Positions 1 to 40,328 of a stretch of DNA of 40,328 nucleotides are shown piece by piece (position 1 is the first letter of the stretch; each line of letters opens with the position of its first letter). Source of the DNA: Dokdonella sp. (GTDB lineage: Bacteria; Pseudomonadota; Gammaproteobacteria; Xanthomonadales; Rhodanobacteraceae); the NCBI GenBank assembly GCA_019634795.1, contig JAHCAR010000022.1:1-40328 (forward strand), written 5' to 3'. The notes beneath the pieces were generated by a model. It was not told the DNA's origin, made no database searches, and was given only the letters and a program-made list of their open reading frames with translations. The position numbers and the translations under genes were made by a program.

Positions 1-31
1 GGGGGGGGGGGGTGGGGGGGGGGGGGGGGGG
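1..31 (+). repeat. Poly-G homopolymer tract (12 G, T, 18 G)
   Basis: The first 31 bases are G apart from one T at 13. In the dnaJ frame they read as about ten glycine codons, leading directly into the Phe-Ser-Asp of the G/F-rich linker. A glycine-rich linker is normal for DnaJ. Encoding it almost only with GGG is unusual and makes the tract prone to slippage and to sequencing or assembly error. The contig edge falls inside the tract, so its true length is unknown. Confidence 0.9.
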
Positions 32-847: not shown

Positions 848-851
848 AGAC

Positions 852-1265
852 GTGGCGAAGACCCGGGCCAGAGCGGCATACATGATCTCGGCGGTAGCCG
901 AGAAGTACGAGATTCACCCGCAGACGCTGCGGATGTACGAGCGGGAAGGGCTGTTGAAGCCGTCGCGGAGCGAGGGGAACACGCGGCTGTACACGGACGA
1001 GGACCTGCAGCGGCTGGAAGTGATTCTGGAGTTGACGCGGGAGTTGGGGGTCAATCTGGCGGGGGTGGAGATCATCCTGAACATGCGCGAAAAGATGGCG
1101 GCGATGCAGGAGCAGATCGAGCAGTTCGTGGCGGAGTTGAATGTGGAGTTGGGGAGGAAGGCGCGTCCGGCTGAGAGTGGGGAGCGGCACGCGCTGATGC
1201 GGGTGGCGCGGGTGGAATCAATGGAAACGCCGCCACCCGTGGTGGGGCGGCGGCGGAAGGCGTAA
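852..1265 (+). CDS. hspR: MerR-family heat-shock repressor HspR
   Basis: This is a 137-residue MerR-type regulator starting at GTG 852, four bases after the dnaJ stop. The N-terminal winged helix has the HspR signature (YMISAVAEKYEIHPQTLRMY, then an EREGLLKP-type wing), followed by a short dimerisation helix (about residues 70-105) and a basic tail. HspR represses chaperone operons by binding HAIR inverted repeats, with DnaK as co-repressor in Streptomyces. Position next to dnaJ supports that role and suggests autoregulation of the operon. No HAIR operator is visible here, which fits an operon promoter upstream of the window. The protein has no cysteine-rich metal-binding tail, which argues against a metal-sensing MerR. 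Confidence 0.88.
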   Translation: MAKTRARAAYMISAVAEKYEIHPQTLRMYEREGLLKPSRSEGNTRLYTDEDLQRLEVILELTRELGVNLAGVEIILNMREKMAAMQEQIEQFVAELNVELGRKARPAESGERHALMRVARVESMETPPPVVGRRRKA

Positions 1266-1281
1266 TTGCCTGCGAGGCGGA

Positions 1282-1287
1282 TACAAT
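1282..1287 (+). promoter_or_regulatory. Candidate -10 element for the PIG-L/symporter operon
   Basis: TACAAT sits 25 bp before the ATG at 1312, in the 46-bp gap after hspR, and would give a short 5' leader. No clear -35 match is found at 16-18 bp. The element is therefore suggestive only. Confidence 0.35.
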
Positions 1288-1311
1288 AGGGAAACTTCCC
1301 CTGGATCCGCT

Positions 1312-3795
1312 ATGTCTCAGACCAAAACTGCACTGTTGTGGATGGCGCTTCTGCTGGCGCCGGTTGGGCTGGAGGCGCAGGCCGTCCGGCGTGCGCCGGG
1401 GTCGGCGGAGTTGAAGCACCGGATCGAGAAGTTGCGGACCGTGGGGCGGGTGTTGATGATCGCGGCGCATCCGGACGATGAGAACACGGCATTTCTGGCG
1501 TATTGCGCGCAGGGGCGGAAGTTGCGGACGGCGTATTTGTCGCTGACGCGTGGCGAGGGGGGGCAGAACCTGATCGGCAGCGAGCAGGGGGCGCTGCTGG
1601 GGGTGATCCGGACGCAGGAGTTGCTGGCGGCGCGGCGGATTGACGGCGCGGAGCAGTTTTTCACGCGCGCAATCGACTTCGGGTTCAGCAAAAGTGCGCC
1701 GGAATCACTCGAAAAGTGGGGTCACGAGGCGGTTTTGGGCGATGTTGTGCAGGTGATCCGCGAGTTTCGTCCGGATGTGATCGTGAACCGGTTCTCGGGA
1801 ACGCCACGCGATGGGCACGGGCATCACCAGGCTTCTGCGCTGCTGGGGAAGGAGGCGTTCCGGGCGGCGGCGGATCCGGCGCGATTCCCGGAGCGGGGGC
1901 GTCCGTGGCAGGCGAAGCGGCTGTTATGGAACGGGTTCAGCTTCTCGCGGGCGCAGGAGCAGGAGCTCGAACAGATGGCCAAGGGTTTGCGGGTGGATTT
2001 GGGCGAGTTTGACGCGCTGGTGGGGTATTCGTACGGGGAGTTGGCGGGGATCAGCCGGAGCCAGCACCGGAGCCAGGGGATGGGCTCGGCGGAGCGGCGG
2101 GGGAGCGTGGCGAACCACCTGTTCGTGGTTGATGGGGCGGCGGCGGAGACGGACTGGCTGGAGGGGTTGGACTTGAGCTGGGCCCGGATACCGGGGGGAG
2201 CGTCCGTGGAAGAGGCGCTGGCGCGGGCCGACCGCGAGTTTGACGTGAATCACCCGGAGCGGGTGTTGGGCGCGTTGGTGGAGGCGCGGCGGCGGATAGC
2301 GGCGCTGGTGCAGGTGGACGCCAAGGCGCGTGTCGAGGAAGCGGATGAAGCGATCGCTCTGGCGGCGGGGTTGTGGCTGGATGTGAGCGTGAACGTGGGG
2401 GAGGCGGCGCCGGGGGAGACGGTCCGGCTGACGCTGACGGCGGTGAGCCGGATGGCCGAAGGGGTGACGCTGGAGCGGGTGGCGGTGACGGGGATGCCGG
2501 GTGCGCCAGTCGTGTTCGACCAACGGGCGGGGCTGGCGCGGAACAAAGCGGTGACAGCGAGCGCGCAGTTTCGGATTCCGGAGGGACAGGCGTGGACGCA
2601 GCCGTTCTGGCTGGCGCGTCCAGCGGCGGGGAATCTGTATACAGTGCCGCCGGAGGCGATTGGGTGGGCGGAGGGCGCGCCAGCGCTGGAGGCGGAGTTT
2701 TTGATCCGGGTTGGGGGCGAGCGGATTGTGCTGAAGAGGCCGGTGGAGTGCCGGTATGTGGACCGGGTCCGGGGCGAGATGACGCGGCCGTTCGCGGTGG
2801 CTCCCGCGGTGGCGGTGCGAATTCCGGCGCATTCGTTGCTGTTTCCAGACACGAAGGCGAGGCCCGTGACAGTGGAGGCGCGGGCGCTGGCCGGCGGGGC
2901 AAAGGCGGTGCTGCGGCTGAAGACGCCAGCGGGGTGGAGGGTGGAACCGGCGGAGGTGGCTTTTGAGGCGAAGGAGAAGGGTGAGCAGAAGGCGATCGTC
3001 TTCCAGGTGACGCCGGGCGCGACTGGGGGTGTGTTGACGGTGGAGGGCGCGCACGAGGTGACGCGGATTGAATACGAGCACATTCCCGTGCAGACGATTC
3101 AGCCGCCGGCGTCGGCGCGGGTGGTTCGGGCGGATGTCCAAATGACGGCCAAGCGGATCGGCTATGTGATGGGGGCGGGCGACGAGGTGCCCGCGGCGCT
3201 GCGGCAGATGGGGGCGGAGGTCGAAATACTGGACGCGGCCGCGCTGGCGCACGGGGAGCTGTCACGGTATCAGGCGATTGTGACGGGCGTCCGGGCCTGG
3301 AACGTGCGCGAGGACTTGCGGAGCGCGCACGAGCGGTTGAAAGAGTTCGCGCGGGCCGGCGGGACGGTGGTGGTGCAGTACAACATCCAGGACGGGGTTT
3401 TTTTCGGGAGCGAGGCGGGAACGCTGAAGAACGTGGGTCCTCTGCCGGTGAAGATCAGCCGCGACCGCGTGACGGTGGAGGAGGCGGATGTCCGGGTACT
3501 GAAGCCAGATCACGTGCTGCTACAGGGGCCGAACGCGATCACGGCGGCGGATTTCGAGGGCTGGGTGCAGGAGCGCGGGCTGTACTTCCCAGGTGAATGG
3601 GACTCGGGCTATGACGCGCTGCTGGAGATGAATGACCCCGGCGAAGAGCCACTGCGGAGCGGCCTGCTCGCCGCGCGAACCGGCCGGGGGTGGTATGTTC
3701 TGACTTCCCTGAGTTTCTTCCGGCAGTTGCCTGCGGGCGTGCCGGGGGCGTACCGGCTGTTTGCGAATCTGGTGAGCGGAGGCGTCGGTCCATGA
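1312..3795 (+). CDS. Secreted PIG-L/LmbE family deacetylase with C-terminal amidotransferase-like domain
   Basis: The 827-residue protein has an N-terminal signal peptide (residues 1 to about 23, hydrophobic LLWMALLLAPVG, then EAQA). The PIG-L deacetylase domain follows: the metal motif AHPDDE is at residues 52-57 and a histidine cluster DGHGHH at 167-172. PIG-L enzymes remove N-acetyl groups from GlcNAc-type sugars using zinc. Residues about 350-600 look like beta-sandwich/NPCBM-type segments. Residues about 615-820 resemble a class I glutamine amidotransferase fold but contain no cysteine, so this part is unlikely to be an active amidotransferase. The export signal and the downstream symporter suggest periplasmic trimming of an amino-sugar compound before uptake. 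The substrate is unknown. The stop overlaps the next start (ATGA at 3792). Confidence 0.88.
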   Translation: MSQTKTALLWMALLLAPVGLEAQAVRRAPGSAELKHRIEKLRTVGRVLMIAAHPDDENTAFLAYCAQGRKLRTAYLSLTRGEGGQNLIGSEQGALLGVIRTQELLAARRIDGAEQFFTRAIDFGFSKSAPESLEKWGHEAVLGDVVQVIREFRPDVIVNRFSGTPRDGHGHHQASALLGKEAFRAAADPARFPERGRPWQAKRLLWNGFSFSRAQEQELEQMAKGLRVDLGEFDALVGYSYGELAGISRSQHRSQGMGSAERRGSVANHLFVVDGAAAETDWLEGLDLSWARIPGGASVEEALARADREFDVNHPERVLGALVEARRRIAALVQVDAKARVEEADEAIALAAGLWLDVSVNVGEAAPGETVRLTLTAVSRMAEGVTLERVAVTGMPGAPVVFDQRAGLARNKAVTASAQFRIPEGQAWTQPFWLARPAAGNLYTVPPEAIGWAEGAPALEAEFLIRVGGERIVLKRPVECRYVDRVRGEMTRPFAVAPAVAVRIPAHSLLFPDTKARPVTVEARALAGGAKAVLRLKTPAGWRVEPAEVAFEAKEKGEQKAIVFQVTPGATGGVLTVEGAHEVTRIEYEHIPVQTIQPPASARVVRADVQMTAKRIGYVMGAGDEVPAALRQMGAEVEILDAAALAHGELSRYQAIVTGVRAWNVREDLRSAHERLKEFARAGGTVVVQYNIQDGVFFGSEAGTLKNVGPLPVKISRDRVTVEEADVRVLKPDHVLLQGPNAITAADFEGWVQERGLYFPGEWDSGYDALLEMNDPGEEPLRSGLLAARTGRGWYVLTSLSFFRQLPAGVPGAYRLFANLVSGGVGP

Positions 3796-3917
3796 GCGAA
3801 GAACAGGAACGGCCGCCGGTATTTGGGTCTTGGCGGCGGCTGTATTGGGCGGTGGGTCTTTATCTGGTGGCCGTGATCGTCCTCTTTTCGATCTTCACGA
3901 GGGTCTTTAACCGGTGA
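3792..3917 (+). CDS. 41-residue single-pass membrane protein, possible symporter small subunit
   Basis: This is a short reading frame starting at ATG 3792, which overlaps the PIG-L stop by four bases, and ending at TGA 3915-3917, which overlaps the GTG start of the symporter at 3914. The polar N-terminus (MSEEQERPPVFGSWRR) is followed by one hydrophobic helix (about residues 18-35, YWAVGLYLVAVIVLFSIF) and a short TRVFNR tail. Double translational coupling to a transporter gene is strong evidence that it is translated. By analogy with the small subunits encoded before some SSS transporters (DUF485 and DUF4212 types, which are larger and have two helices), it may stabilise or regulate the symporter. 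I do not recognise the family. Confidence 0.75.
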   Translation: MSEEQERPPVFGSWRRLYWAVGLYLVAVIVLFSIFTRVFNR

Positions 3918-5551
3918 GACCGCTGGACTGGGCGGTGCTGGCGGTTTCACTGGCGGGGATTGTGTTGTACGGGTTGTGGCGGGGGCGGGGCAGCGACACG
4001 ACGCAGAAGTACCTGCTGGCGGGCAAGACGATGCCCTGGTACGCCATGGCGCTCTCGATCATGGCGACGCAGGCGAGCGCGATCACGTTTATCTCGACGA
4101 CTGGGCAGAGCTACGTGGATGGGATGCGCTTCGTGCAATTCTACTTCGGGCTGCCGCTGGCGATGATCATCATTGCGGCGTACGTGGCGCCGCGGTTCCA
4201 CGCGAGCGGGGTGTACACGGCGTACGAGTACCTGGAGCGGCGGTTTGACGCGCGGACGCGGGCGCTGGTCAGCGTGATCTTTTTGATTCAAAGAGGGTTG
4301 GCGGTGGGCGTGGCGCTGTCGGCGCCGGCGCTGGTGCTGACGGTGATCATGGGGTGGCCGGCGGAGGTTACGACGCTTCTGATGGGGTTGACGGTGATCG
4401 GCTACACGGTCTCTGGGGGGATCGCGGCGGTCACGTGGACGGATTTCGTCCAGATGCTGGTGATGACGCTGGGACTGGTGGCGGCACTGGCGACGGCGCT
4501 GTGGCTTTCACCGGTGGATCTGGGCGGGGCGCTGCAGGTGGCGGGCGCGGCGGGACGGCTGAATCCGGCGGTGTGGACTTTCGATCTGAACGACCGCTAC
4601 AACGTGTGGAGCGGCGTGATCGGTGGGATGTTCCTGGCGCTGGCGTACTTTGGGTGCGATCAGAGCCAGGTGCAGCGGTATCTGACGGGCAAATCCATCG
4701 CGCAGGCGAAGTTGAGCCTGTTGTTCAATGCCGTGGCGAAGATCCCGATGCAGTTCTTCATCCTGTTCATTGGGGCGATGGTCTTTGTTTTCTTCACGTT
4801 CACGAAGCCGCCGGTGGTGTTTGATCCGGGGGTACAGGCGAAGGCGGAGCAGGCGGCGGGGTACGAGGCGGTGGAGCGTGAGTTCAACGTGGCGTGGACT
4901 GCCCGGAAAGCGGCGGCGGAGGCGCTGCCGGGGACGGAAGCGGAGTTCAAGGCGGCGCAGAAGGCGATGGACGTGGCCCGGGCCAAAGCCGCGACCCTGG
5001 CCGGGCACGAAGGGTTTAATGACACGAACTACATCTTTCTGTCGTTTGTGACCAAGTATATGCCGGTGGGGGTGGTCGGGCTGATCATGGCGGCGATTTT
5101 CGCGGCGGCGATGAGTACGATCTCGGCGGAGATCAACTCGCTGGCGACTGTGTCAGTGATCGACGTGTACCGGCGGCACATGAAGAAGGAGGCCGATGAC
5201 GGGCATTACCTGCGGGCGTCGCGCTGGGCGACGGGATTCTGGGGGCTGTACGCGGTGGTGACAGCGCAGTATGCGACCAATCTGGGGTCGCTGATCGAGG
5301 CCGTGAACATGTTGGGATCGCTGTTTTATGGTGGGCTGCTGGGGGTCTTCGGGCTGGCGTTCTTCTTTCCCAGAGTTACGGGGCGGGGGGCGTTCTATGG
5401 GGTTCTGCTGGGGGAGGCCGCGATTTTTGCGACGCGATTTGGCACAGAGATCACGTTCCTCTGGTTCAATGTGATCGGATGTGTTGTCGTGATCGTGTCA
5501 GGGGTGGTGATAAGTAGTATCGGGCGGCGGATTGGCCGGCCGGTGGGCTGA
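3914..5551 (+). CDS. Sodium:solute symporter (SSS family)
   Basis: This 545-residue inner-membrane transporter has about 13 hydrophobic segments. It starts at GTG 3914, overlapping the upstream microprotein. The N-terminal region has the SSS pattern (LLAGKTMPWYAMALSIMATQ, then a Ser/Thr-rich SAITFISTTG), followed by the GYTVSGGIAAVTWTDFVQ and AYFGCDQSQVQRYLTGKS segments typical of the family. SSS proteins couple sodium influx to uptake of sugars, amino acids, sialic acid or short organic acids. A hydrophilic Ala/Lys/Glu-rich insert of about 75 residues (about 300-375) is probably a helical loop and is unusual. The deacetylase two genes upstream suggests an amino-sugar or similar substrate, but this is inference. 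No terminator was found after the gene. Confidence 0.9.
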   Translation: MRPLDWAVLAVSLAGIVLYGLWRGRGSDTTQKYLLAGKTMPWYAMALSIMATQASAITFISTTGQSYVDGMRFVQFYFGLPLAMIIIAAYVAPRFHASGVYTAYEYLERRFDARTRALVSVIFLIQRGLAVGVALSAPALVLTVIMGWPAEVTTLLMGLTVIGYTVSGGIAAVTWTDFVQMLVMTLGLVAALATALWLSPVDLGGALQVAGAAGRLNPAVWTFDLNDRYNVWSGVIGGMFLALAYFGCDQSQVQRYLTGKSIAQAKLSLLFNAVAKIPMQFFILFIGAMVFVFFTFTKPPVVFDPGVQAKAEQAAGYEAVEREFNVAWTARKAAAEALPGTEAEFKAAQKAMDVARAKAATLAGHEGFNDTNYIFLSFVTKYMPVGVVGLIMAAIFAAAMSTISAEINSLATVSVIDVYRRHMKKEADDGHYLRASRWATGFWGLYAVVTAQYATNLGSLIEAVNMLGSLFYGGLLGVFGLAFFFPRVTGRGAFYGVLLGEAAIFATRFGTEITFLWFNVIGCVVVIVSGVVISSIGRRIGRPVG

Positions 5552-5703
5552 CCAGGAACGGGATGGTTGAATGGCGGGCGGTCCTGGGGGCGCAGGTCAA
5601 GCGGAAAGCGCCCAACGTATTGAAAATGCAGGCATTGGGAAGGAAGAAGCAGCGTCAGGTTGCAGGGGGTGTCAATGCGGAAGAAACTTTTGTGAAAAAA
5701 AGA

Positions 5704-5733
5704 TTGCACAAGGACGATCTGTGCTGCTATTCT
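5704..5733 (+). promoter_or_regulatory. Candidate rrn promoter P1
   Basis: TTGCAC at 5704-5709 and TATTCT at 5728-5733 are separated by 18 bp. They lie directly after the A-rich run AAAAAAAGATTG, which could act as an UP-like element. Both boxes match the consensus only partly. Confidence 0.4.
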
Positions 5734-5782
5734 GGGGGACGTAGCCGCGACAGACGCTTGAGTGCGGTTGGGACGGAAGGGC

Positions 5783-5811
5783 TTGCGAAAGTCTGGAACG
5801 TCTGGTACTCT
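5783..5811 (+). promoter_or_regulatory. Candidate rrn promoter P2
   Basis: TTGCGA at 5783-5788 and TACTCT at 5806-5811 are separated by 17 bp. The layout resembles P1 about 78 bp upstream. Tandem promoters are common before rRNA operons, but the match here is weak. Confidence 0.3.
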
Positions 5812-6023
5812 GGCAGATGGGCAGCAATGAACGCCAGTGGGGTGACGTGAGTCGCTGAGCTGGTGCGGCCCGTGAGAGTCGAAGCGGTTTTCAAGTTTCC
5901 CGACTTTTTGGCAAGGAACTTGTGAGTGCCCGGTGAAGCCGGGTCAGGCAAGTGCGCGCCAAAACGCCTTTCGAGGCCGGCAGTGAATCATTCTTCCTTC
6001 GGGATCGGTGGTGGAGCTGCTCA

Positions 6024-6040
6024 GATCATTGAAAATCTGG
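6024..6040 (+). promoter_or_regulatory. boxA-like antitermination element before 16S
   Basis: GATCATTGAAAATCTGG resembles the TCATTGAAAACTGAA boxA seen in many bacterial rRNA leaders. A closely related copy occurs at 8140-8157 before 23S. The recurrence before both large rRNAs supports an Nus-factor antitermination role. Confidence 0.5.
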
Positions 6041-6102
6041 TTGAACGCGAAGTCAATTCCGTGAGAAATCTTGAGTTTCAACCGGAGCAAACTCTACAAC
6101 TT

Positions 6103-7608
<1,506 letters not shown>

Positions 7609-7810
7609 AGAGAAACTGAACAGTATCCGCTGTGTACGGCGGAGACCTGGCCTTCGGGTTGGGGCTGTTCCAACGGATTGGATTGCAGTATGAATTCAAT
7701 TCGTGTTCCGGATCTCCACTCGAGATTTCCCCACGATATTTGACTCAAGCCAGTGAGCAGGACTCCTGGTGTCGCGTTCAACCGGCCTCGAAAAACCTGT
7801 TGAGGAGTTG

Positions 7811-7838
7811 AGGCGGCCGGCTGGAAAGCCGGCCGCCT
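7811..7838 (+). other. Perfect 12-bp hairpin with GGAA tetraloop in the 16S-tRNA spacer
   Basis: AGGCGGCCGGCT (7811-7822), loop GGAA, then AGCCGGCCGCCT (7827-7838), followed by TCTTCTC. The stem is fully G/C-closed and ends 16 nt before tRNA-Ala. It could be an RNase III processing site, or a terminator-like structure that ribosomal antitermination must read through. The T-tract is poor for a normal terminator. Confidence 0.8.
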
Positions 7839-7854
7839 TCTTCTCACGAAACAG

Positions 7855-7930
7855 GGGGCTGTAGCTCAGCTGGGAGAGCGCCTGATTTGCATTCAGGAGG
7901 TCGTCGGTTCGATCCCGATCAGCTCCACCA
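7855..7930 (+). tRNA. tRNA-Ala(UGC)
   Basis: This is a complete cloverleaf of 76 nt with the CCA encoded. The acceptor stem is GGGGCTG/CAGCTCC, the anticodon arm is CCTGA-TTTGCAT-TCAGG with anticodon TGC, and the T arm is GTCGG-TTCGATC-CCGAT. It lies in the 16S-23S spacer, as usual for this tRNA. Confidence 0.97.
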
Positions 7931-7941
7931 GTATCCAATAC

Positions 7942-8018
<77 letters not shown>

Positions 8019-8139
8019 ATAAAGAGTCTTGAGCAGACTAGAAGACGCTGGTTTTTGGACGCGAGTTCAAAGAACACCGTCTCCTGAGCTGATCAGGGCG
8101 CCCGTCCGGAAGGGCGGGAACCGGCGCAAAACCGGAAAG

Positions 8140-8157
8140 CTCATTGAAAACTGAATA
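8140..8157 (+). promoter_or_regulatory. boxA-like antitermination element before 23S
   Basis: GCTCATTGAAAACTGAAT closely matches the boxA-type sequence found before 23S in many bacteria and resembles 6024-6040. It overlaps the outer 5' arm of the 23S processing helix, which begins at 8150. Confidence 0.6.
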
Positions 8158-8167
8158 TTTGACGGGT
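8150..8167 (+). other. Outer 5' arm of the pre-23S processing helix
   Basis: ACTGAATATTTGACGGGT (8150-8167) pairs with GCCCGTCAAATATCAGT (11287-11303), with one bulged A and one terminal G-T pair. With the inner block 8288-8326/11225-11262 it forms the long base-paired stem expected around precursor 23S for RNase III cleavage. The pairing proves that both sides of 23S come from one operon. Confidence 0.85.
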
Positions 8168-8316
8168 AAATCCGCAAGTTGCCGTCCATTCCTGGAAGAA
8201 ATGAAGGGGATGGAGCAAGAGCGAACAACGAATGGATCAGAGGAAATTCGCCCTCGCGAGGGGGTGGAGATGAATCTGGTTATTCTCGAAAGTTCTGTGT
8301 ACGGCGTTTATTTTAT

Positions 8317-11234
<2,918 letters not shown>

Positions 11235-11286
11235 TAAAATACACCCTGTATACAGACTTTCCGCTCTTGGAAGCGATTTGTGGATC

Positions 11287-11303
11287 GCCCGTCAAATATC
11301 AGT
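11287..11303 (+). other. Outer 3' arm of the pre-23S processing helix
   Basis: GCCCGTCAAATATCAGT is the partner of 8150-8167 (see that entry). It is the last point at which the sequence can be tied physically to the acidobacterial operon before the 5S gene. Confidence 0.85.
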
Positions 11304-11324
11304 AGAACTCGAAGCTCAAACGAC

Positions 11325-11442
11325 TTTGGGTGACCATAGCGAGAGGGTCACACCCGTTCCCATCCCGAACACGGCAGTTAAGCCTCTCAGCCCCGATGAT
11401 ACTGCATGCGCAAGTGTGTGGGAAAGTAGGTCAACGCTGAGC
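11325..11442 (+). rRNA. rrf: 5S ribosomal RNA, probably chimeric at its 3' end
   Basis: This is recognisable 5S sequence of the expected 118 nt. Loop A reads GACCATAGCG, the conserved CCCATCCCGAACACGG follows, and helix IV (CTGCATGC, loop GCAA, GTGTGTGG) leads to the GTAGGTCA segment. Helix I, which should join the two ends, does not close. The 5' arm CTTTGGGTGA would need a 3' arm like TCGCCCAAAG, but the sequence after AACGC reads TGAGCATCC. Only the inner pairs (G-C, T-G, G-C, G-T) form, and the base of the helix has an A-A mismatch. The 3' strand AACGCTGAGC would instead fit a 5S beginning GCTCAGCGT. The coding style also changes immediately afterwards. Confidence 0.85.
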
Positions 11443-11575
11443 ATCCAACCCTGAACTCCCGCTCGACCGAGCATTGGGCGGAACTCTTGCAGCCGGCGGC
11501 GCAGCTGCGCGAGCCATTGCGCAACCCTGATCAGCTGGTAGTCTCGCGCTTCCCCATACTAGCGACGCACACCCC
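11438..11575. other. Junction between two genomes (probable assembly chimera)
   Basis: To the left, genes and rRNA are acidobacterial in character, with G-ending codons. To the right, genes are gammaproteobacterial with C-ending codons, starting with hemF. The change falls at the 3' end of 5S, where rRNA conservation lets unrelated genomes share k-mers. This 138-bp stretch holds no gene. It contains no integrase site, direct repeat or IS end that would support true transfer. A weak hemF promoter (TTGCGC 11517-11522, TAGTCT 11539-11544, 16-bp spacer) may be present. Confidence 0.8.
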
Positions 11576-12484
11576 ATGGCCGAGCCGTCTGATCACCTGA
11601 GCGCCATTGAAACCTATCTGACCGGCCTGCAGGACAGGATTTGCCAGTCAGTCGAGGCGCTGGATGGCAAGGAACGCTTCAAGGAGGACCTCTGGACCCG
11701 CGCTGAGGGTGGTGGCGGACGGACCCGCATCCTCGCCAACGGCGGCGTCTTCGAACAGGCAGGCATCGGCTTTTCACGGGTCTCGGGGAGCACGCTGCCG
11801 CCATCCGCATCCCAGCACCGCCCGGAACTGGCCGGCCGCAGCTGGACCGCCCTGGGCGTTTCGCTGGTCTTTCATCCCTTGAACCCGTATGTGCCGACGA
11901 CGCACATGAACGTGCGCTTCTTTGAAGCCAGCGCCGAAGGGGTGCAGCCTGTCTGGTGGTTCGGCGGCGGATTCGACCTGACGCCCTATTACCCGTTCGA
12001 CGAGGACGTGCGTCACTGGCATGGAATCGCCAGGGAAGTCTGCCAGCCGCTCGGCGACTTGGCCTACGCGCGTTACAAGAAGTGGTGCGACGAGTACTTC
12101 TTCCTCAGGCATCGCAATGAAACGCGCGGCGTCGGCGGGCTGTTCTACGACGATCTGCAGGAGGGTGGGTTCGAGCGCTGTTTCGCCTTCATGCAAGGTG
12201 TGGGCGACGGTTTCCTGAGGGCTTATGCGCCCATCGTTGAGCGCAGAAAAGCCACCCCCTACGGCGAGCGCGAGCGCGAGTTCCAGCTTTATCGGCGCGG
12301 TCGCTACGTGGAATTCAACCTCGTCTACGACCGCGGCACCCTGTTTGGACTGCAGTCCGGCGGGCGCGCCGAATCCATCCTGATGAGCCTGCCCCCCCGC
12401 GTCCGCTACGAGTACGGCTACCAGCCCGAAGCCGGTAGCGCCGAGGCACGCTTGGGCGAGTACCTCAGGCCGAGGGACTGGTAA
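11576..12484 (+). CDS. hemF: Oxygen-dependent coproporphyrinogen III oxidase
   Basis: HemF oxidatively decarboxylates coproporphyrinogen III to protoporphyrinogen IX in the cytoplasm, using O2, in haem synthesis. At 302 residues it has the usual bacterial length. Family blocks are all present: [15 protein letters not shown] near residue 55, HMNVRFFEA near 110, [14 protein letters not shown] near 128, [11 protein letters not shown] near 184 and the C-terminal [16 protein letters not shown] followed by [17 protein letters not shown]. The ATG at 11576 is preceded only by a weak ribosome-binding site. It is the first intact gene after the junction and converges on the DUF2782 gene with a 17-bp gap. 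No oxygen-independent HemN is in view. Confidence 0.96.
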
Positions 12485-12501
12485 GGAAAATCAGCTACCA
12501 A

Positions 12502-12972
12502 TCAGTTCCATTCGTAGATCGTGAAATAAACCGGCGCCACGGGACCTTCAAGCGGATCCTTGTCGAGCCGGCCATCGCCGTTCTGATCGACATAGATGTG
12601 CTCCGGTCCGTTTTGCGGGCGAATCCGGACCATTCGCAGTTTTCCCTTCTCTCGGTATTCGGTAATCGTGTCCGAACCCTCGGTGCGCTCGGTCACCGAG
12701 TCGCTGTTGGCTTCGATCTGCGCGGCTGTGCGGTCCTTGCTGCGCGAAGCCTTGTCGCGGACCGGACGCGTGTCCGGCATGTTCGGCTTCAAGGTTTCGG
12801 CGCCGGCTTGGGGCGCCGTTGCGGACGGCACGCCGCTCTCATCCATCCCCGGTGGCGGCGGCGCGCTCTGGAACTTCGGAGCGGCGTCTGTCGCAGGCTT
12901 TGACTCCTCTGCCGATGCGGGCGCCCCGAAAACAACCCCTGCAAGAACTGCAACGACCAACAAACGGTTCAT
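12502..12972 (-). CDS. Secreted DUF2782 family protein
   Basis: The protein has 156 residues and starts at the ATG at 12972; the same frame stays open far upstream, but only this start gives a signal peptide (MNRLLVVAVLAGVVFGAPASA, cleavage before EES). A low-complexity Pro/Ala/Glu/Lys linker spans residues about 25-85. The conserved C-terminal domain (about 88-156) reads TITEYREKGKLRMVRIRP, then HIYVDQNGDGRLD and ends PVYFTIYEWN. Proteins of this kind sit beside polA in Pseudomonas and Xanthomonas relatives, as here, where it is divergent from polA. The function is unknown. The DQNGDGRLD segment resembles an EF-hand-like calcium loop, but only once. Confidence 0.85.
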   Translation of the reverse strand: MNRLLVVAVLAGVVFGAPASAEESKPATDAAPKFQSAPPPPGMDESGVPSATAPQAGAETLKPNMPDTRPVRDKASRSKDRTAAQIEANSDSVTERTEGSDTITEYREKGKLRMVRIRPQNGPEHIYVDQNGDGRLDKDPLEGPVAPVYFTIYEWN

Positions 12973-13041
12973 GGGAAGATCTCCTGATGTCGGCTCAAGC
13001 ATAGCCCAGCTCGACTGTACGCAACTTGACCTCGTGATTTG

Positions 13042-13055
13042 TTGACCTTCATCAA
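13042..13055. promoter_or_regulatory. FNR/Anr-like palindrome between the DUF2782 gene and polA
   Basis: TTGACCTTCATCAA differs from the FNR consensus TTGAT-N4-ATCAA at one position. It lies 70 bp upstream of the DUF2782 start and 167 bp upstream of polA, where it could serve either promoter. A second TTGACC at 13026-13031 could be a -35 box instead. One site with no known regulon is weak evidence. Confidence 0.3.
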
Positions 13056-13221
13056 GGGCGGGACAGGCGTACCCGCTGAGGGCGCCAGCTCTGCTTGGCC
13101 AACCCGGACCATGCCCCACCGCTTTTCGTGCAGCCATGGCGGAATCGATTTGCCATGCCGGGCGTTGCATTCCGGGCTTTCGCGAGCCAAGCTGCCCCGC
13201 CCGCACAAGCCATCCACGCAC

Positions 13222-15984
13222 ATGCAGACGCCGCGCAAACGTCTCGTCCTGATCGACGGGTCCTCCTACCTGTTTCGGGCCTTCCATGCCCTGCCGCCGC
13301 TCAGCAATGCGGCCGGCGAGCCGACCGGGGCGCTGTTCGGCGTGGTCAACATGCTGCGTGCGACGCTGAAGGAGAATCCCGAATATGTCGCCTTTGTCAG
13401 CGATGCCTCCGGGCCGACCTTTCGCGACGAAATGTATGCCGAATACAAGGCCAACAGAGCGCCGACCCCGGAGGACCTGAAGGCCCAGGTCGAGCCCATG
13501 CTCGCGATCGTCGCGGCGCTCGGCTTTCCGATTCTCAGGGTCGCTGGGGTCGAGGCCGACGATGTCATCGGCACCCTGGCCCGCCAGGCCGAGGCGCAGG
13601 ACATCGATGTCGTGATCTCCACCGGCGACAAGGATTTCGCCCAACTCGTGTCGCCGCACATCACGCTGGTCAACACGATGACAAGGACCTCGATGGACCG
13701 CAACGCCGTGATCGAGAAATTCGGCGTGCCGCCAGAACGCATCGTCGATTTCCTCGCATTGACCGGAGACACCGTCGACAACGTACCCGGCGTGCACAAG
13801 TGCGGGCCGAAAACGGCGGCAAAATGGATCGCCGAGTACGGTTCGCTCGACGAGGTGATCCGGCGTGCCGGCGAGGTCGGCGGCAAGATCGGCGAGAATC
13901 TGCGCCAGGCGCTGGGGCACCTGCCGTTGTCGCGGAAACTGGTGACCATCAAGACCGACGTGGCGCTGGACGTCGGTGCGACCGACCTCGCCTTGCGTGA
14001 GCCCGACGTCGAGACACTCGCCACGCTCTACCGTCGCTACGAATTCAATGCTGCCCTTAAGGACCTCGAGGGCAAGTCAGCCAGTCAGGACGTGGCCCGG
14101 GAAGCGCTCACGGGCGAGCCGTCGGCCGCAAAGCGCGCGTCGGACGATCGCTCGGCCGAAAAAACTCCAGCGGTAGCTGGCATCTATGAGACGGTGCTCG
14201 AACAGGACCGTTTCGAGCATTGGCTGCGCCTGATCGAATCCGCCGATCTGGTCTGCTTCGACACCGAAACCACATCGATCGACTCGATGCGGGCGGAGAT
14301 CGTGGGAGTGTCGTTTTCGGTCGAGGCCGGGTCCGCAGCCTACATCCCGCTGGCACACGACTATCCCGGCGCGCCGCGACAACTCGACCGGTCCGCGGTA
14401 CTCGCCGCGCTCAAGCCGCTGCTCGAGGACAAGACCAGGGCCAAGCTTGCCCAGCACGCCAAATACGATATCAACGTCCTCTCGAATGCCGGAATCGAGG
14501 TCGCCGGGGTGGCCCACGACACGATGCTCGAGTCCTACGTGCTGAACTCCACGGCTTCGCGCCACGACATGGATACGCTGGCCAAGCGCCACTTGGACTA
14601 TCAGACCATCCACTTCGAGGACGTTGCCGGCAAGGGCGCCAAGCAGATCCTGTTCTCGCAGGTCGATATCGACACCGCAACCCGCTATGCGGCCGAAGAT
14701 GCCGATATCACGCTGCGCCTGCACCATGCGCTCTGGCCGCAGCTCGAAGCCGAGCCGAAGCTCGCTTCGGTCTACCGCGACATCGAAATACCGCTGATAC
14801 CCGTGCTCGCGCGCATGGAACAGACCGGTGTACTCGTCGATGTCGAGGCCTTGCGCACCCAGGGCCGTCAGCTGGCCAGGCGCATGCACGAGCTGACCAC
14901 CCAGGCCCATGAGATCGCCGGTCGCAACTTCAGCCTCGATTCGCCGAAGCAACTGCAGGCGCTGTTGTTCGACGAGCTGAAGCTGCCGGTGGTCATGAAG
15001 ACACCCAAGGGACAGCCCTCGACCAACGAGGAGGCGCTCGAAGCAATTGCCGATGCCCACGAATTGCCGCGACTGATACTCGAATACCGCGGCTTGGCCA
15101 AGCTGCGCTCGACCTATACCGAAAAGCTCGCGGAGATCGTCAATCCGCGAACCGGGCGCGTGCATACCAGCTATCACCAGGCCACTGCCGCGACCGGACG
15201 CCTTTCCTCGTCCGATCCCAACCTGCAGAACATACCGGTGCGCACCGAGGAAGGACGACGGATTCGCCAGGCCTTCATCGCCCCACCCGGATACAGGATC
15301 CTCGCCGCCGACTACTCGCAGATCGAGCTAAGGATCATGGCCCATCTGTCCGGCGATGCCGGCCTGCTGGCTGCCTTTCACGGCGACCAGGACATCCACC
15401 GCAGCACGGCCGCAGAAGTCTTCTCGGTGCCGCTGGCCGATGTCGATGCGCAGCAGCGACGCGCGGCCAAGGCGATCAATTTCGGTCTGATGTATGGCAT
15501 GAGCGCATTCGGCCTGGCCCGCCAGCTCGGCATCGGCCGCGGTGAGGCGCAGGACTACATCGCCCGCTACTTCAATCGCTATCCGGGCGTTCGCGAATTC
15601 ATGGACCGGGTCCGCGAGCAGGCCCATCAGGATGGCTACGTGGAAACCGTGTTCGGGCGCCGCCTCTACCTCGACAGCATCGGCTCCCGCAACCAGGCGC
15701 AACGCGCCGGAGCCGAGCGCGCAGCGATCAACGCACCGATGCAGGGCACCGCCGCCGACATCATCAAGCGCGCCATGATCGCAGTCGACCACTGGCTGGC
15801 GGAGCGTGCGGGTGAAGCGCGCATGCTCATGCAGGTTCATGACGAACTGGTCTTCGAGGTCCGCGAAGACAGCGTCGAAAGCATTCGCGACGGCGTGCGT
15901 GCACGCATGGCGGGTGCCGCCGAGCTTGATGTTCCGCTGGTCGTCGACATCGGCGTGGGCGCCAACTGGGACGAGGCACATTGA
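13222..15984 (+). CDS. polA: DNA polymerase I
   Basis: PolA fills gaps and removes RNA primers in replication and repair. From ATG 13222 it has 920 residues, the normal size. The N-terminal 5'-3' exonuclease begins VLIDGSSYLFRAFHA, with ADDVIGTLA near residue 114 and STGDKDFAQLV near 135. The 3'-5' proofreading domain is complete: Asp347 and Glu349 in FDTETT, KYDINVL, then Tyr489/Asp493 in YAAEDAD. Polymerase motif A is DYSQIELR (Asp697), motif B RRAAKAINFGLMYG (Arg746, Lys750) and motif C VHDELVF (His873, Asp874). The frame is open from 13039, but the 61-residue extension lacks family similarity, so the start before PRKRLVLIDGSS was chosen. An sRNA gene follows within about 110 bp. Confidence 0.97.
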   Translation: MQTPRKRLVLIDGSSYLFRAFHALPPLSNAAGEPTGALFGVVNMLRATLKENPEYVAFVSDASGPTFRDEMYAEYKANRAPTPEDLKAQVEPMLAIVAALGFPILRVAGVEADDVIGTLARQAEAQDIDVVISTGDKDFAQLVSPHITLVNTMTRTSMDRNAVIEKFGVPPERIVDFLALTGDTVDNVPGVHKCGPKTAAKWIAEYGSLDEVIRRAGEVGGKIGENLRQALGHLPLSRKLVTIKTDVALDVGATDLALREPDVETLATLYRRYEFNAALKDLEGKSASQDVAREALTGEPSAAKRASDDRSAEKTPAVAGIYETVLEQDRFEHWLRLIESADLVCFDTETTSIDSMRAEIVGVSFSVEAGSAAYIPLAHDYPGAPRQLDRSAVLAALKPLLEDKTRAKLAQHAKYDINVLSNAGIEVAGVAHDTMLESYVLNSTASRHDMDTLAKRHLDYQTIHFEDVAGKGAKQILFSQVDIDTATRYAAEDADITLRLHHALWPQLEAEPKLASVYRDIEIPLIPVLARMEQTGVLVDVEALRTQGRQLARRMHELTTQAHEIAGRNFSLDSPKQLQALLFDELKLPVVMKTPKGQPSTNEEALEAIADAHELPRLILEYRGLAKLRSTYTEKLAEIVNPRTGRVHTSYHQATAATGRLSSSDPNLQNIPVRTEEGRRIRQAFIAPPGYRILAADYSQIELRIMAHLSGDAGLLAAFHGDQDIHRSTAAEVFSVPLADVDAQQRRAAKAINFGLMYGMSAFGLARQLGIGRGEAQDYIARYFNRYPGVREFMDRVREQAHQDGYVETVFGRRLYLDSIGSRNQAQRAGAERAAINAPMQGTAADIIKRAMIAVDHWLAERAGEARMLMQVHDELVFEVREDSVESIRDGVRARMAGAAELDVPLVVDIGVGANWDEAH

Positions 15985-16081
15985 GCACCCGTAACAGCCC
16001 GGACCGGAAAGGTGAATAGCGGATAAACGCGCCCGGAAATATTTTTCGGAGCGCGAAACTTATTCCTGCCAACCCGCGTCT

Positions 16082-16087
16082 TATCAT
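16082..16087 (+). promoter_or_regulatory. Candidate -10 box of the polA-downstream sRNA
   Basis: TATCAT lies just before the first hairpin of the sRNA. The position about 17 bp upstream (CTTATT/TTATTC near 16059-16065) is a poor -35. An A/T-rich patch (16037-16047) precedes it. Confidence 0.4.
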
Positions 16088-16216
16088 CCGGGTGCACGCA
16101 ACGGCACCCCCGGATCCACCCACCTCCCTGGCTGGATCCCCCGGAGATCGGTCCCTCCCCAGACCGGTTTTCGAACCCCGCCCCGAGGGCTCCCCCTGGC
16201 CCTCGGGGCAATTTTA
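16088..16216 (+). ncRNA. sX13-like small RNA with C-rich loops
   Basis: The intergenic region after polA folds into consecutive hairpins. The first is GGGTGC/GCACCC (16090-16109). The second is GGATCCA/TGGATCC (16112-16139), with a 14-nt loop containing CCCACCTCCC. The third is CGGTC/GACCG (16149-16166), with loop CCTCCCCA. The fourth is a perfect 10-bp stem CCCCGAGGGC/GCCCTCGGGG (16181-16208), with loop TCCCCCTG, followed by CAATTTTA as an intrinsic terminator. Three C-rich loops presented on stems are the hallmark of sX13, the Xanthomonadaceae sRNA located beside polA, which pairs with G-rich motifs at ribosome-binding sites. The 5' end is approximate. Identification rests on position, length (about 120 nt) and architecture, recalled without alignment. 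Confidence 0.7.
16181..16216 (+). terminator. Rho-independent terminator of the sRNA (or polA)
   Basis: A perfect 10-bp G/C stem (16181-16190 with 16199-16208) and 8-nt loop are followed by CAATTTTA. The T-tract is short but the stem is very strong. It would end the sRNA and also any polA read-through. Confidence 0.8.
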
Positions 16217-16281
16217 TGCCTGCGATTTGCCGGGAATGCGCGCCAGCTCAGGTACCAAAGCGCCGTAATTCCTTGATGTGA

Positions 16282-17661
16282 CTATGTATTTCTCAATGCG
16301 GCCAGCAAGGCGGACCTCGGCAGCTTGCCAGTCTCATTGCGCGGCAATGCATCGACCAGGCGCAAGGGCCGCGGCAGGAACAGCGGGTCGATCGCATGGC
16401 GCATTTCGGCCAGCAGGCTCTTTTCGGAACGTCCGGGCGCGACGGCGAGTGCTGCTATGCGTTGGATCGGCGAACCGGGTTCAGCTTCGAGCTGAAACAC
16501 GACCGCATCCCGGACTCCGTCCAGCGATTGCAGGCGCCGGGTCAGGTCGGCCAGCGACGCGCGCTTGCCGGCAATCTCGAGCAGATCGGCATTGCGCCCG
16601 CGCAGCCTGAAGCGTCCTCCGGGCAGCACTTCGACGATATCCTGCAGGGCCACCGCCTGCTGCAGGTGGCGGGCATTGACCAGCGTGCCGTCGGGTTGCG
16701 GTTGCAGGGAAACACCCTCGTGCAGGATCCAGTCGGTTTCACTGGCCGTGCGCCGGTGGGCAATGACGCAGGTTTCGGTCGACCCGAACATCTCGATCAG
16801 CGGCGCGCCCAGTCGCGCCTCGGCTTGCGCCGCGAGGTCGGCCGACAGGGGCGCCGTTGCCGAGACGATGGCAGCGATCGGTGGCAGTTCGACCGCGTCG
16901 TGCAGAATCGCGCGCAAATGGACCGGTGTGGTCACCAACAGCCGCGGTGCCGGAATCTGTTCGAGTGCCCGGGCGATGTCCGCCGGGAAGAACGGTCGCC
17001 CGGAATGAACCGCGAATGGCCCGAACAGGGGCAGCAGGACCGACAGCTCCATGCCGTACATGTGCTGTGCCGGCACGGTTGCAACGACATGGGCCACGCT
17101 GCCGCGCTGGAGCGCCATCGCCGCACACAACACGTCGCTGTTCAAGCGGCTGCCGATCCGGAAACCCTCCCAGGTCTTTGCATTGGGCTTGGGCGCTCCG
17201 GTGCTGCCGGAGGTGAATCCGATGACTGCGATGTCAGTCGGAACAACTCCACAGGATTCCGCAGCGCGGTGCGCAGGGGCGCCGTCGAGCCGCGGCAGGC
17301 GCACCATGTGTTCGCTGATCTCGCAGGTGGCTGAGTCGCCGAGTACGCAGGCGCCGGCATGCTCGGACTGCGCGTCGGCGATGGCCTGGCGGGCCCGCGA
17401 AGAGGGCAGCAAGGTGGTTCGTCCGAGCGAGGCCGCCGCGCACAGGGCCGCTGTGAAGACGTAGCGATCGTCGCAGAGGTTGATGGCGCTGCCCGCTCCG
17501 GGCAGCAGCGGGCGCAGCTGGCGGACGTCGGCCAGAAATTCGGCGACGCTGACAGGACGGCCCTCGCGCCAGGCGAATACGCGGCCGGGATCCTCGCCCT
17601 CCAGCAGCGCGAACGCGCCGGAACGATCGTCCCGCTCGCCGGGCTCGATGACTGCAGACAT
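16282..17661 (-). CDS. AMP-dependent acyl/aryl-acid ligase
   Basis: This 459-residue adenylate-forming enzyme activates a carboxylic acid as acyl-AMP, for transfer to CoA or an acyl carrier. It has the P-loop GFTSGSTGAPKP near residue 150, MFGSTETC (A5 motif) near 290, the A7/A8 region RLRGRNADLLEIAGKRAS near 352-369 and the A10 lysine in LPRNETGKLPRSALL at the C-terminus. It is shorter than typical acyl-CoA synthetases. It resembles stand-alone ligases from aryl-polyene/xanthomonadin clusters, but no other cluster gene is nearby. The ATG at 17661 has a strong ribosome-binding site (AGGGAGGAGC). It lies 173 bp downstream of topA on the same strand and ends shortly after the sRNA terminator. 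The substrate cannot be told from sequence. Confidence 0.8.
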   Translation of the reverse strand: MSAVIEPGERDDRSGAFALLEGEDPGRVFAWREGRPVSVAEFLADVRQLRPLLPGAGSAINLCDDRYVFTAALCAAASLGRTTLLPSSRARQAIADAQSEHAGACVLGDSATCEISEHMVRLPRLDGAPAHRAAESCGVVPTDIAVIGFTSGSTGAPKPNAKTWEGFRIGSRLNSDVLCAAMALQRGSVAHVVATVPAQHMYGMELSVLLPLFGPFAVHSGRPFFPADIARALEQIPAPRLLVTTPVHLRAILHDAVELPPIAAIVSATAPLSADLAAQAEARLGAPLIEMFGSTETCVIAHRRTASETDWILHEGVSLQPQPDGTLVNARHLQQAVALQDIVEVLPGGRFRLRGRNADLLEIAGKRASLADLTRRLQSLDGVRDAVVFQLEAEPGSPIQRIAALAVAPGRSEKSLLAEMRHAIDPLFLPRPLRLVDALPRNETGKLPRSALLAALRNT

Positions 17662-17834
17662 GCTCCTCCCTCAATCCCTGATCAAATCCCCGGTGATAGC
17701 GTCGCGTATTGGCGTCGGCCGCTCAAGTGCCCCGAACGCATCGACGACCTTCGATCAGATTTCCGGCTGCATCGGTTCCTGTTCGATCGATGCCCGCCAC
17801 CCGGCGCGACGACGTCTCGCGCAACAGGCCGGCG

Positions 17835-20375
17835 TCAGTTGTCGACGCTGGACGCCGACGCCGAGGCCTTGTTCGCCACCTTCTTGGCCGCCGACGACTT
17901 CGAGCCGGCCTTTTTCGCCGGCGCTTTCTTCGCAGCTGACTTCTTCGTGGCGGTCTTTTTGCCGGCCGCTTTCTTCACCGCGGTCTTCTTGACGGCCTTC
18001 TTCGCAGCCGGCTTGGCGGTGGCTGCCGTTTCGGCGGTCTTCTTGCCGGCCGGCTTGCCCTTGGCGCCCTTGCCGAAGCCGCGTTTTGGCCGGAACGGCG
18101 CAGCCGCGAGCAGTTCCACGCACTCGGCCTCGCTCAGGCTCTTCGGCTCGCGGTCCTTCGGGATCCGAGCGTTCTTGTCGCCGTCGGTGATGTAGGCGCC
18201 GTAGCGCCCGTTCAGCACCTGGATGCCATTGCCGAAGTCCTGGATGATCCGGTTGGCCAGGGCCTCGGCCTTGGCCCGGACCAGTTCGAGGGCGCGCGGC
18301 AGTTCGATCGTGTACGGATCGTCTTCCTTGGTCAGCGACGCATAGGTCGAACCGATCTTGACGAAAGGGCCGAAGCGGCCGATGCCGACGGTGACATCTT
18401 CGCCTTCGTCCGAGCTGCCAAGGGTGCGCGGCAGCTTGAACAGTTCGAGGGCTTCTTCGGCGGTGATCGTATGCATGCTCTGGCCGGGGCGCAGGCTTGC
18501 GAACTTCGGCTTTTCCTCGTCTTCCTTGGTGCCGATCTGGGCAAACGGTCCGTAACGCCCGAGCCTCACCGAGAGCGGCTTGCCCGACACCGGATCGACA
18601 CCGAGCACGCGACTGCCGCTGGCCTCGGACTTGTCGACCGTTTCGATCTTTTCGTCGATCTGTGCCTTGAACGGCTTCCAGAACCGGCTCAGCAGCGGGA
18701 CCCAGTCTTCCTCGCCGCGACTCACCGCATCGAGCTCGTCCTCGAGCTTGGCGGTGAAATCGTAGTCGACATAGCGGGCGAAGTGGCTGGCGAGGAACCG
18801 GCCCACCGCGCGTCCGACATCGGTCGGCTTGAAGCGGCGGCTGTCGAGGATCACGTATTCGCGGTTGAGCAGGACCTGGATGATGCTGGCATAGGTCGAT
18901 GGCCGGCCGATCCCGTATTCCTCGAGGGCCTTGACCAGGCTGGCCTCGGAGAAGCGCGGCGGCGGTTCGGTGAAGTGCTGGTCGGTGATGATGTCGCGCA
19001 GTGGCACGGCCTCGCCGACCTTCATCAGCGGCAACTTGCGTGCGTCGTCCTCGTCGTCCGCCGACTTCTGGTCACGGCCTTCCTCGTAGACCGCGAGGAA
19101 GCCCGGGTCGATGACCGTGGTGCCGGTGGCGCGAAACGCCGCATCGGGTCCGCAGGGAAAATCCACCGACACGGTGTTGAGGGTGGCGTGCTGCATCTGG
19201 CTGGCGACCGTGCGCTTCCAGATCAGTTCGTAGAGCTTGGCATGATCGGGCGACAGGAAGGCGGCGACGCGCTTCGGCGTCAGCGCGGCCGAGGTCGGGC
19301 GGATCGCTTCGTGCGCTTCCTGAGCGTTCTTCGACTTCGATTTGTAGACGTTGGCCTGTTCGGGCAGCGACTGGCGGCCGAACTCGCGCGCAATGACCTC
19401 GCGCAGTTCGCCGATCGCCTCCTCGGAAATCGAGGTCGAGTCGGTACGCATGTAGGTGATCAGGCCGACCACGCCCTCGTCGCCGATGGCGATGCCCTCG
19501 TAGAGCTGCTGGGCCAGGCGCATGGTCCGGCTGGTCGCGTAGCCGAGCTTGCGCGCCGCTTCCTGCTGCAGGGTCGAGGTCGTGAACGGCGCCGACGGAC
19601 GCCGCTTGCGTTCCTTCGACTGCACCTCGCCGACGACCAGACGCCCCTGCGCCGCCTTGTACAGCGCGTTGCGGGCGGCATGTGCATCGGCCGTGTTGGT
19701 CAGGTCGAACTGTTCGAACTTCTTGTTGTTGAGCTTGAGCAGGCGCGCCTTGAAGGCCTGGTCCGGATGCGCGAGGTCGGCTTCGATCGTCCAGTATTCG
19801 CGCGGAATGAAGGCCTCGATCTCCTCCTCGCGCTCGACGATCATGCGCAGTGCCGGCGACTGCACGCGTCCGGCAGAGAGGCCGCGCTGGACCTTGCGCC
19901 AGAGCACCGGGGACAGATTGAATCCGACCAGATAGTCCAGCGCACGGCGGGCCTGCTGGGCGTTGACGAGCTCCATCGAAAGCTGGCGCGGGTGGGCGAC
20001 CGCCTCCTTGATGGCCCGTGGCGTGATCTCGGAGAAGACCACGCGATGCACGGCCTTGTTTTCGAGCAACTTCTTCTGCCGCAGGATTTCGGCGATGTGC
20101 CAGGAAATCGCCTCGCCTTCGCGATCAAGGTCGGTTGCGAGATAGAGCGAGTCGGCCTGCTTGATCGCCTTGACGATCGCATCGACGTGCTTGGTGTTCT
20201 TCTCGATCAGGTCGTAGTTCATCGCGAAATCGCGGTCCGGATCGACGGCGCCCTCCTTTGGCACCAGATCGCGCACATGGCCGTAGGAAGCGAGGACCTG
20301 GAAGTCCTTGCCGAGGTACTTGTTGATCGTCTTGGCCTTGGCGGGCGACTCGACGATAAGCAGGTTTTTGGCCAT
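17835..20375 (-). CDS. topA: DNA topoisomerase I with lysine/alanine-rich tail
   Basis: TopA relaxes negative supercoils by a type IA single-strand break. The 846-residue protein has an N-terminal TOPRIM domain (LLIVESPAKAKTI near 5, and the DLDREGEAI metal site near 82) and the active-site tyrosine Tyr308 in GLITYMRTDSTS. The C-terminal part carries topoisomerase repeat domains without zinc cysteines (RLGRYGPFAQIG, GIGRFGPFVKIG, LNGRYGAYI), unlike the zinc-ribbon form of E. coli. The last about 75 residues are a histone-H1-like tail of KKAA/KKTA repeats, which should bind DNA non-specifically. Such tails occur in xanthomonad and actinobacterial TopA. The ATG at 20375 follows a 212-bp gap from dprA with a candidate -10 box. 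Confidence 0.97.
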   Translation of the reverse strand: MAKNLLIVESPAKAKTINKYLGKDFQVLASYGHVRDLVPKEGAVDPDRDFAMNYDLIEKNTKHVDAIVKAIKQADSLYLATDLDREGEAISWHIAEILRQKKLLENKAVHRVVFSEITPRAIKEAVAHPRQLSMELVNAQQARRALDYLVGFNLSPVLWRKVQRGLSAGRVQSPALRMIVEREEEIEAFIPREYWTIEADLAHPDQAFKARLLKLNNKKFEQFDLTNTADAHAARNALYKAAQGRLVVGEVQSKERKRRPSAPFTTSTLQQEAARKLGYATSRTMRLAQQLYEGIAIGDEGVVGLITYMRTDSTSISEEAIGELREVIAREFGRQSLPEQANVYKSKSKNAQEAHEAIRPTSAALTPKRVAAFLSPDHAKLYELIWKRTVASQMQHATLNTVSVDFPCGPDAAFRATGTTVIDPGFLAVYEEGRDQKSADDEDDARKLPLMKVGEAVPLRDIITDQHFTEPPPRFSEASLVKALEEYGIGRPSTYASIIQVLLNREYVILDSRRFKPTDVGRAVGRFLASHFARYVDYDFTAKLEDELDAVSRGEEDWVPLLSRFWKPFKAQIDEKIETVDKSEASGSRVLGVDPVSGKPLSVRLGRYGPFAQIGTKEDEEKPKFASLRPGQSMHTITAEEALELFKLPRTLGSSDEGEDVTVGIGRFGPFVKIGSTYASLTKEDDPYTIELPRALELVRAKAEALANRIIQDFGNGIQVLNGRYGAYITDGDKNARIPKDREPKSLSEAECVELLAAAPFRPKRGFGKGAKGKPAGKKTAETAATAKPAAKKAVKKTAVKKAAGKKTATKKSAAKKAPAKKAGSKSSAAKKVANKASASASSVDN

Positions 20376-20484
20376 GGTGCGGTCCTATGCGCCGGTACTG
20401 GCCGGCGCCAAGCGGGCTGCCGATCCGCAGTGGATCAGCAGGGAAGTTTCGAAAATTGCCTATTCAGCAGGACACACGTGTTTA

Positions 20485-20516
20485 CGGGCTGTCAAGCCCG
20501 AGGGCGCGGCACTATA
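20485..20516 (-). promoter_or_regulatory. topA: Candidate topA promoter and leader hairpin
   Basis: On the minus strand, TATAGT (20516-20511) is a good -10 match about 136 bp before the topA ATG. It is followed in the leader by a 6-bp hairpin CGGGCT/AGCCCG (20500-20485) that contains TTGACA. No strong -35 is seen. Confidence 0.3.
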
Positions 20517-20587
20517 CCCAATCGGACGCTGCTGCGGATCGCGACGACAAGGCCCACGGCGGCCAGCCGGGCCTTCAGGCAGGCGCC

Positions 20588-21751: not shown

Positions 21752-21835
21752 GCGGCCAAGTCTAAGCGATGCGCCAACGAAAACGGCGCGGTGGATGCCA
21801 CCGCGCCGTTCCCGGGTCAATCCATCAGGCTTCGG

Positions 21836-40327: not shown

Positions 40328-40328
40328 G

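Follow-up and report, generated by a model that had tools for sequence, protein, structure and literature searches.

A very probable inter-genome assembly chimera joined within a 5S rRNA gene in a bacterial draft genome

Introduction

According to Chen et al. (2020, PMC7111523), metagenome assemblies seldom contain chimeras of two organisms, and the passages that deal with them name three signs: paired reads fail to support the join, coverage differs strongly, and the parts have different phylogenetic profiles. The contig presented here resembles such inter-genome chimeric scaffolds in that the phylogenetic profiles of its parts differ, which is known from sequence alone. It is unlike the scaffolds of those passages in that its join can be placed within 8 nt, near where a 5S rRNA gene ends on its 3′ side. 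There is also a likeness to the erroneous rRNA genes in metagenome-assembled genomes (MAGs) treated in the same source, whereby a wrong rRNA gene lands in a genome bin. In the cases given there, short scaffolds are misbinned by anomalous coverage, whereas here the 16S gene belongs to a contig of 40 kb that is, for the larger part, placed correctly. A third comparison is with the E. coli-Salmonella chimeric contigs of a mock community (PMC8172020). There too, assembly joins two genomes, but as portrayed in the relevant part of that study the two are highly similar, while the relatives of the two sides considered here share only 8 nt at the switch.

The window that was analysed is the whole of contig C15 (1-40,328) of draft genome G000, which consists of 3,867,029 bases in 51 contigs with a listed completeness of 85.19 and a contamination of 0.54, and which we infer to be a metagenome bin. 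Judged by sequence comparison, the contig is, with a probability of about 0.96, an inter-genome assembly chimera in which DNA of a Bryobacterales acidobacterium and DNA of G000's own genus were joined within a 5S rRNA gene. The features of the window are in Table 1.

Table 1. Coordinates of features in the window, with remarks on their closest relatives.
Feature	Position	Strand	Remarks
Segment assigned to a Bryobacterales acidobacterium: truncated dnaJ, hspR, PIG-L protein, SSS symporter, and rrn operon to the last left-specific base	1..11422	+	17-5748 is 92.3% nt identical to UBA8773 contig; rrn nearest Bryobacterales
dnaJ, C-terminal part, cut by contig start	2..847	+	35-43% aa identity to best DnaJ in 19 relatives of G000
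MerR-family regulator, HspR-like	852..1265	+	103.7 bits, slightly below NCBIfam cut-off of 105
PIG-L-domain protein	1312..3795	+	
Sodium/solute symporter	3914..5551	+	96% aa identity to UBA8773, 92% to Bryobacteraceae ACI1
16S rRNA, acidobacterial	6103..7603	+	Only 16S found in G000
tRNA-Ala(TGC)	7855..7930	+	
tRNA-Ile(GAT)	7942..8018	+	
23S rRNA, acidobacterial	8317..11235	+	
Hybrid 5S rRNA gene	11326..11442	+	Acidobacterial to 11422, other genome from 11431
Switch zone AAAGTAGG	11423..11430	+	AGAGTAGG in relatives of both sides
5S 3′ end and incomplete terminator of right-hand genome	11431..11506	+	11426-11451 identical to G009
Segment assigned to G000's own genus	11507..40328	+	In-order matches to G002:C61 up to 38767
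hemF, oxygen-dependent coproporphyrinogen oxidase	11576..12484	+	93% aa identity to G002
IS4-family transposase with DUF4372 domain	39046..40314	+	At right contig end

Relatives of the left and right parts

The symporter was used in a scan of named genomes. Eighty loci were kept, mostly titled Bryobacterales, Bryobacteraceae or other acidobacteria, and the two closest are from UBA8773 and then ACI1. Positions 17-5748 form a single continuous match to the Bryobacterales contig DNFG01000439.1 of UBA8773, which stops there, and positions 17-5514 match Bryobacteraceae ACI1 at 78.6% nt identity. The DnaJ sequence at 2-844, by comparison, is far from the best DnaJ found across relatives of G000 (Table 1). 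A full-length native DnaJ was not found in G000, where only a more distant DnaJ-like gene, on C12, was detected, and the dnaJ neighbourhood of same-genus G002 had no match in 19 stretches of G000 plus the window, which are a small part of the genome. The missing native gene counts against a chimera, as a gene replacement would explain it too, though the draft is 85% complete.

It should be noted that one locus, L018 (VFZE01000025.1, genome G060), is titled Acidimicrobiia, which is an actinobacterial name. Its symporter shows 68% aa identity and its rrn operon 86-92% nt identity to the acidobacterial set, and G060 is listed in the order of ACI1; the record is probably mislabelled. A separate observation concerns the spacing between symporter and 16S genes, which is about 0.55 kb in the window (5552-6102) versus about 17 kb in ACI1. 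The UBA8773 contig backs the sequence to 5748 only, and matches to ACI1 resume from 5763. A second join near 5,748-5,763 is conceivable.

Within the rrn operon, a duplex calculation pairs 8149-8326 with 11224-11304. This duplex contains the stem 8150-8167/11287-11303 by which the preliminary description had tied the operon together, and thus the operon is one piece up to 11,304. The tRNA genes have the order Ala-Ile, opposite to that in same-genus G009 and G003. The 16S region is 88% identical to Bryobacterales G047 and 91% to G046, versus 79-80% to G009 and G003, and the 23S is 84% and 85% identical to the same two Bryobacterales, versus 71-78% for the 23S pieces of G009 and G003. Among 16S-region matches of more than 300 nt (50 loci in 49 genomes, two being in one genome), the best is to ACI1, 95% over about 1.1 kb, where the ACI1 contig stops inside its 16S. 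The other near-full-length 16S matches in the 49 genomes are at 83-92%, with the exception of the Bryobacteraceae-titled G086 at 80%, a value that counts against the chimera reading. With 88-95% identity to Bryobacterales, the gene bears out the earlier warning that to assign it to the right-hand genome would be wrong. A chimera point inside the 16S or the 23S was considered and rejected on match identities, by which both genes side with Bryobacterales.

Rfam models find no 16S or 5S in G000 besides those on C15. A second rrn operon was likewise not found in G000 with the rrn operon of G009 as query; four matches outside C15, of 61-83 bases, are all in the tRNA part of the query.

On the right, 11507-37532 is colinear with G002:C61 over 26 kb at 88.4% nt identity, and further matches extend to 38767. 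HemF has matches in all 40 genomes searched (G000 included), with G002 the closest and 72-81% aa identity in other members of the genus and family. The contig ends at a transposase of the IS4 family, a usual kind of assembly break point. When compared with the best E. coli 16S among the matches listed, the 16S of G009 is 84.6% identical and that of the window 80.0%; this would fit a gammaproteobacterial right side and is only suggestive, not proof. An sX13-like sRNA had been proposed next to polA, and no sX13 match in the window reaches the Rfam gathering cut-off.

The phylogenetic profile thus differs to the left and right of the join, where synteny breaks as well. The nearest relatives of the two sides are distant from each other and each side is continuous with its own, as expected if, according to the original proposal, unrelated genomes meet in a 5S gene. 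Were the window part of an ordinary one-organism genome with an unusual operon neighbourhood, involving neither chimera nor transfer, the continuity of the contig would be the single point in its favor. Such a genome would have to combine distant nearest relatives, at 92% nt identity on one side and 88% on the other, with a hybrid 5S, and its probability is negligible.

Composition

Tetranucleotide profiles were compared with a sample of G000 made of the first 20 kb of each of 12 of its 51 contigs. The z-score correlation of 1-5748 with this sample is 0.160. Thirty-six pieces of G000 itself, of the same size, give 0.461-0.836 against the rest of the sample, and all five pieces from the right-hand part of the window give 0.711-0.795; the profile comparison, which had been suggested as a check, separates 1-5748 from the right-hand part. 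The correlation of 1-5748 with UBA8773 is 0.890, a high value because the sequences are homologous. With nine pooled acidobacterial loci it is 0.618, which is not distinctive by itself, since G000's own pieces give 0.186-0.689 with that pool and one right-hand piece gives 0.621.

A change from G-ending to C-ending codons had also been described, and it was recovered: at third codon positions the fraction of G is 0.56-0.71 in all four left-hand genes, and that of C is 0.46-0.53 in all nine right-hand genes examined. GC skew, taken in steps of 1 kb, lies at +0.24 to +0.36 for the first six steps and at -0.16 to +0.11 from 11 kb on. The join thus coincides with a compositional break, in tetranucleotides as well as in codon use.

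The hybrid 5S gene

Relatives of both sides carry a 5S at the appropriate place. The acidobacterial loci have 5S genes, and in five of the nine same-genus relatives (G002, G003, G004, G008 and G009) a 5S, or its 3′ part where a contig ends, is directly upstream of hemF, its 3′ end being at -148 to -430 from that gene; the distance in the window is -150. The 5S tail motif was not found upstream of hemF in G001, G006 and G007, nor in any of 10 same-family loci, within upstream stretches of 206-1500 bases. In both G004 and G008 the contig stops inside this 5S, 51 bases before the tail, and thus assemblies of this genus do break there.

Important is the order of bases at the switch. The base after the motif AGAGTAGG is A in every one of the 29 acidobacterial loci, which come from 26 genomes and two of which contain one and the same gene copy. 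In G000's order, 28 loci from 26 genomes were compared, and TC follows the motif in 27 of them; in L109, the exception, the motif had been picked wrongly. The window is acidobacterial in sequence before AAAGTAGG, and continues with TC. In the 5S alignment, it agrees with the acidobacterial rows up to and including GTGTGTGGGA; after GTAGG it agrees with those of the same genus, G009 being closest. The exact runs that it shares with acidobacteria stop at 11,423, and the one shared with G009 begins at 11,425-11,426; all 30 acidobacterial 5S matches among the matches listed end at window position 11,430. The 21-mer that starts at 11,426 is present in two of 10 genomes of the genus, G000 and G009. 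As measured on relatives of the two parents, the sequence therefore switches at a stretch common to both sides, and each side continues differently. The A at 11,424 is absent from all 56 relatives' loci that have the motif, which counts against the chimera reading. The preliminary description had the 5S body continue normally to about 11,437; the switch is earlier, at 11,423-11,430.

The 5S of the window has a score of 88.7 bits, and its closing helix is flagged as containing non-standard pairs, in agreement with the reported failure of that helix. It had also been suggested that the 3′ strand would fit a different 5′ end, and same-genus G002 has such an end, GCTCAGCG, the exact complement of CGCTGAGC. 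When the 5S arms are folded as free duplexes, the window gives -9.9 kcal/mol. Acidobacterial pairs average -13.7 (20 of 25 loci; five were unparsed) and same-genus pairs -17.0 (nine of nine). The 5′ arm of the window cross-pairs at -13.5 with acidobacterial 3′ arms and at -13.8 with same-genus 3′ arms. These energies overlap, and thus the arm duplex energies alone discriminate weakly.

Downstream of the 5S, G009 has a terminator-like hairpin, and the same scan finds none in the window, where the hairpin after the 5S tail (11443-11506) is without the 3′ arm and T-run seen in G009. The hairpin may be incomplete because this copy of the tail has decayed, or because the join is irregular at a second point. 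Extra tail copies are seen elsewhere in the genus. G002 and G003 have an extra tail-like copy before hemF, and positions 1-260 of L085, upstream of hemF in G005, are a tandem array of period 92 with 2.8 copies and 94% matches, each unit of which has a 5S-like 3′ tail and a terminator-like hairpin.

Origin of the join

The DNA to the left of 11,423 is very probably that of a Bryobacterales acidobacterium and ends in its own rrn operon. The DNA to the right of 11,430 is very probably that of G000's genus and starts in the 3′ end of a 5S just upstream of hemF. Alternatively the right piece may start in an additional, degenerate copy of the 5S tail, because the window is without the hairpin of G009 and because G002, G003 and G005 have extra tail-like copies. 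The join itself was probably made by an assembler, a scaffolder or a gap closer, or by a chimeric read, since assemblies break in this repeat and AGAGTAGG is common there to relatives of both sides.

The mechanism first proposed, a merging of two contigs through conserved 5S k-mers, is not borne out in its literal form and was rejected. The exact run common to both sides' relatives at the switch (three acidobacterial versus two same-genus 5S loci) is 8 nt, which is below k; the usual assembly values of k exceed 8 nt and are about 20 or more. Exact runs between the window and G009 and G003 reach 76 nt in the 16S and 74 nt in the 23S, and a de Bruijn merge would be expected there. The 8-nt overlap thus makes a plain k-mer merge unlikely and counts against a chimera of that type. 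A short-overlap join of two contig ends, in scaffolding or gap closing, is more likely, and a chimeric read would come next. The latter, in which a library or amplification artefact would have produced a chimeric DNA molecule or read through the 8-nt homology, falls under the chimera explanation and does not compete with it. It is consistent with the sharing of only AGAGTAGG at the switch and with the one odd base in the window. Yet it needs enough coverage to be assembled, and a conserved repeat where contigs end would be more typical of contig-end joining, so that this route is rather unlikely, if well within consideration.

A real horizontal transfer should also be considered, in which a stretch of Bryobacterales DNA of 11 kb or more, an entire rrn operon included, entered the right-hand organism via short 5S homology. 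A living cell of the right-hand genus would then carry this recent piece, and the cell's own 5S upstream of hemF would be fused to a foreign rrn operon that is complete. Consistent with such an event, the contig is continuous in the record, and neither another rrn operon nor another full-length DnaJ was found in G000. Against it, the left part matches a Bryobacterales contig without a break and is compositionally far from G000, no mobility gene is present among its four genes, the hybrid 5S has a poorly paired closing helix, and the contigs of two relatives end inside this 5S. As for host sequence on both flanks of a putative transferred piece, the contig start falls inside the acidobacterial dnaJ.

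The same junction would be expected in related genomes after an rrn transfer. A hybrid 29-mer was used as a junction probe, with up to 3 mismatches allowed, and it was found in one of 398 genomes sampled from G000's order, G000 itself, and in none of 257 of ACI1's order. The absence of the junction from the other genomes searched agrees with the proposed joining of two genomes in the 5S, and so do the 5S found before hemF in members of the right-hand genus and the base-level switch within the hybrid gene. Natural transfer was rejected as the main reading on composition, on the 5S switch and on the absence of the junction elsewhere, and is very improbable.

Implications for the draft genome

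If the contig is an assembly chimera, G000 carries a foreign 16S, 23S, dnaJ and hspR. Since the contig is very probably an assembly error, the 16S filed under G000 is very likely that of another organism. No other 16S was found in this genome, and the one it has is acidobacterial and not that of the genus in which G000 is placed. Similarly, since a native dnaJ of full length was looked for in G000 and not found, annotation would assign an acidobacterial DnaJ and HspR to it. The listed contamination of 0.54 hides the error, because the foreign 11 kb rides on a contig whose larger part is placed correctly. Users who link G000 to amplicon data, design probes, or count this DnaJ and HspR among its genes would be misled. 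A comparison of the taxonomy of both flanks of each rrn operon would reveal such cases.
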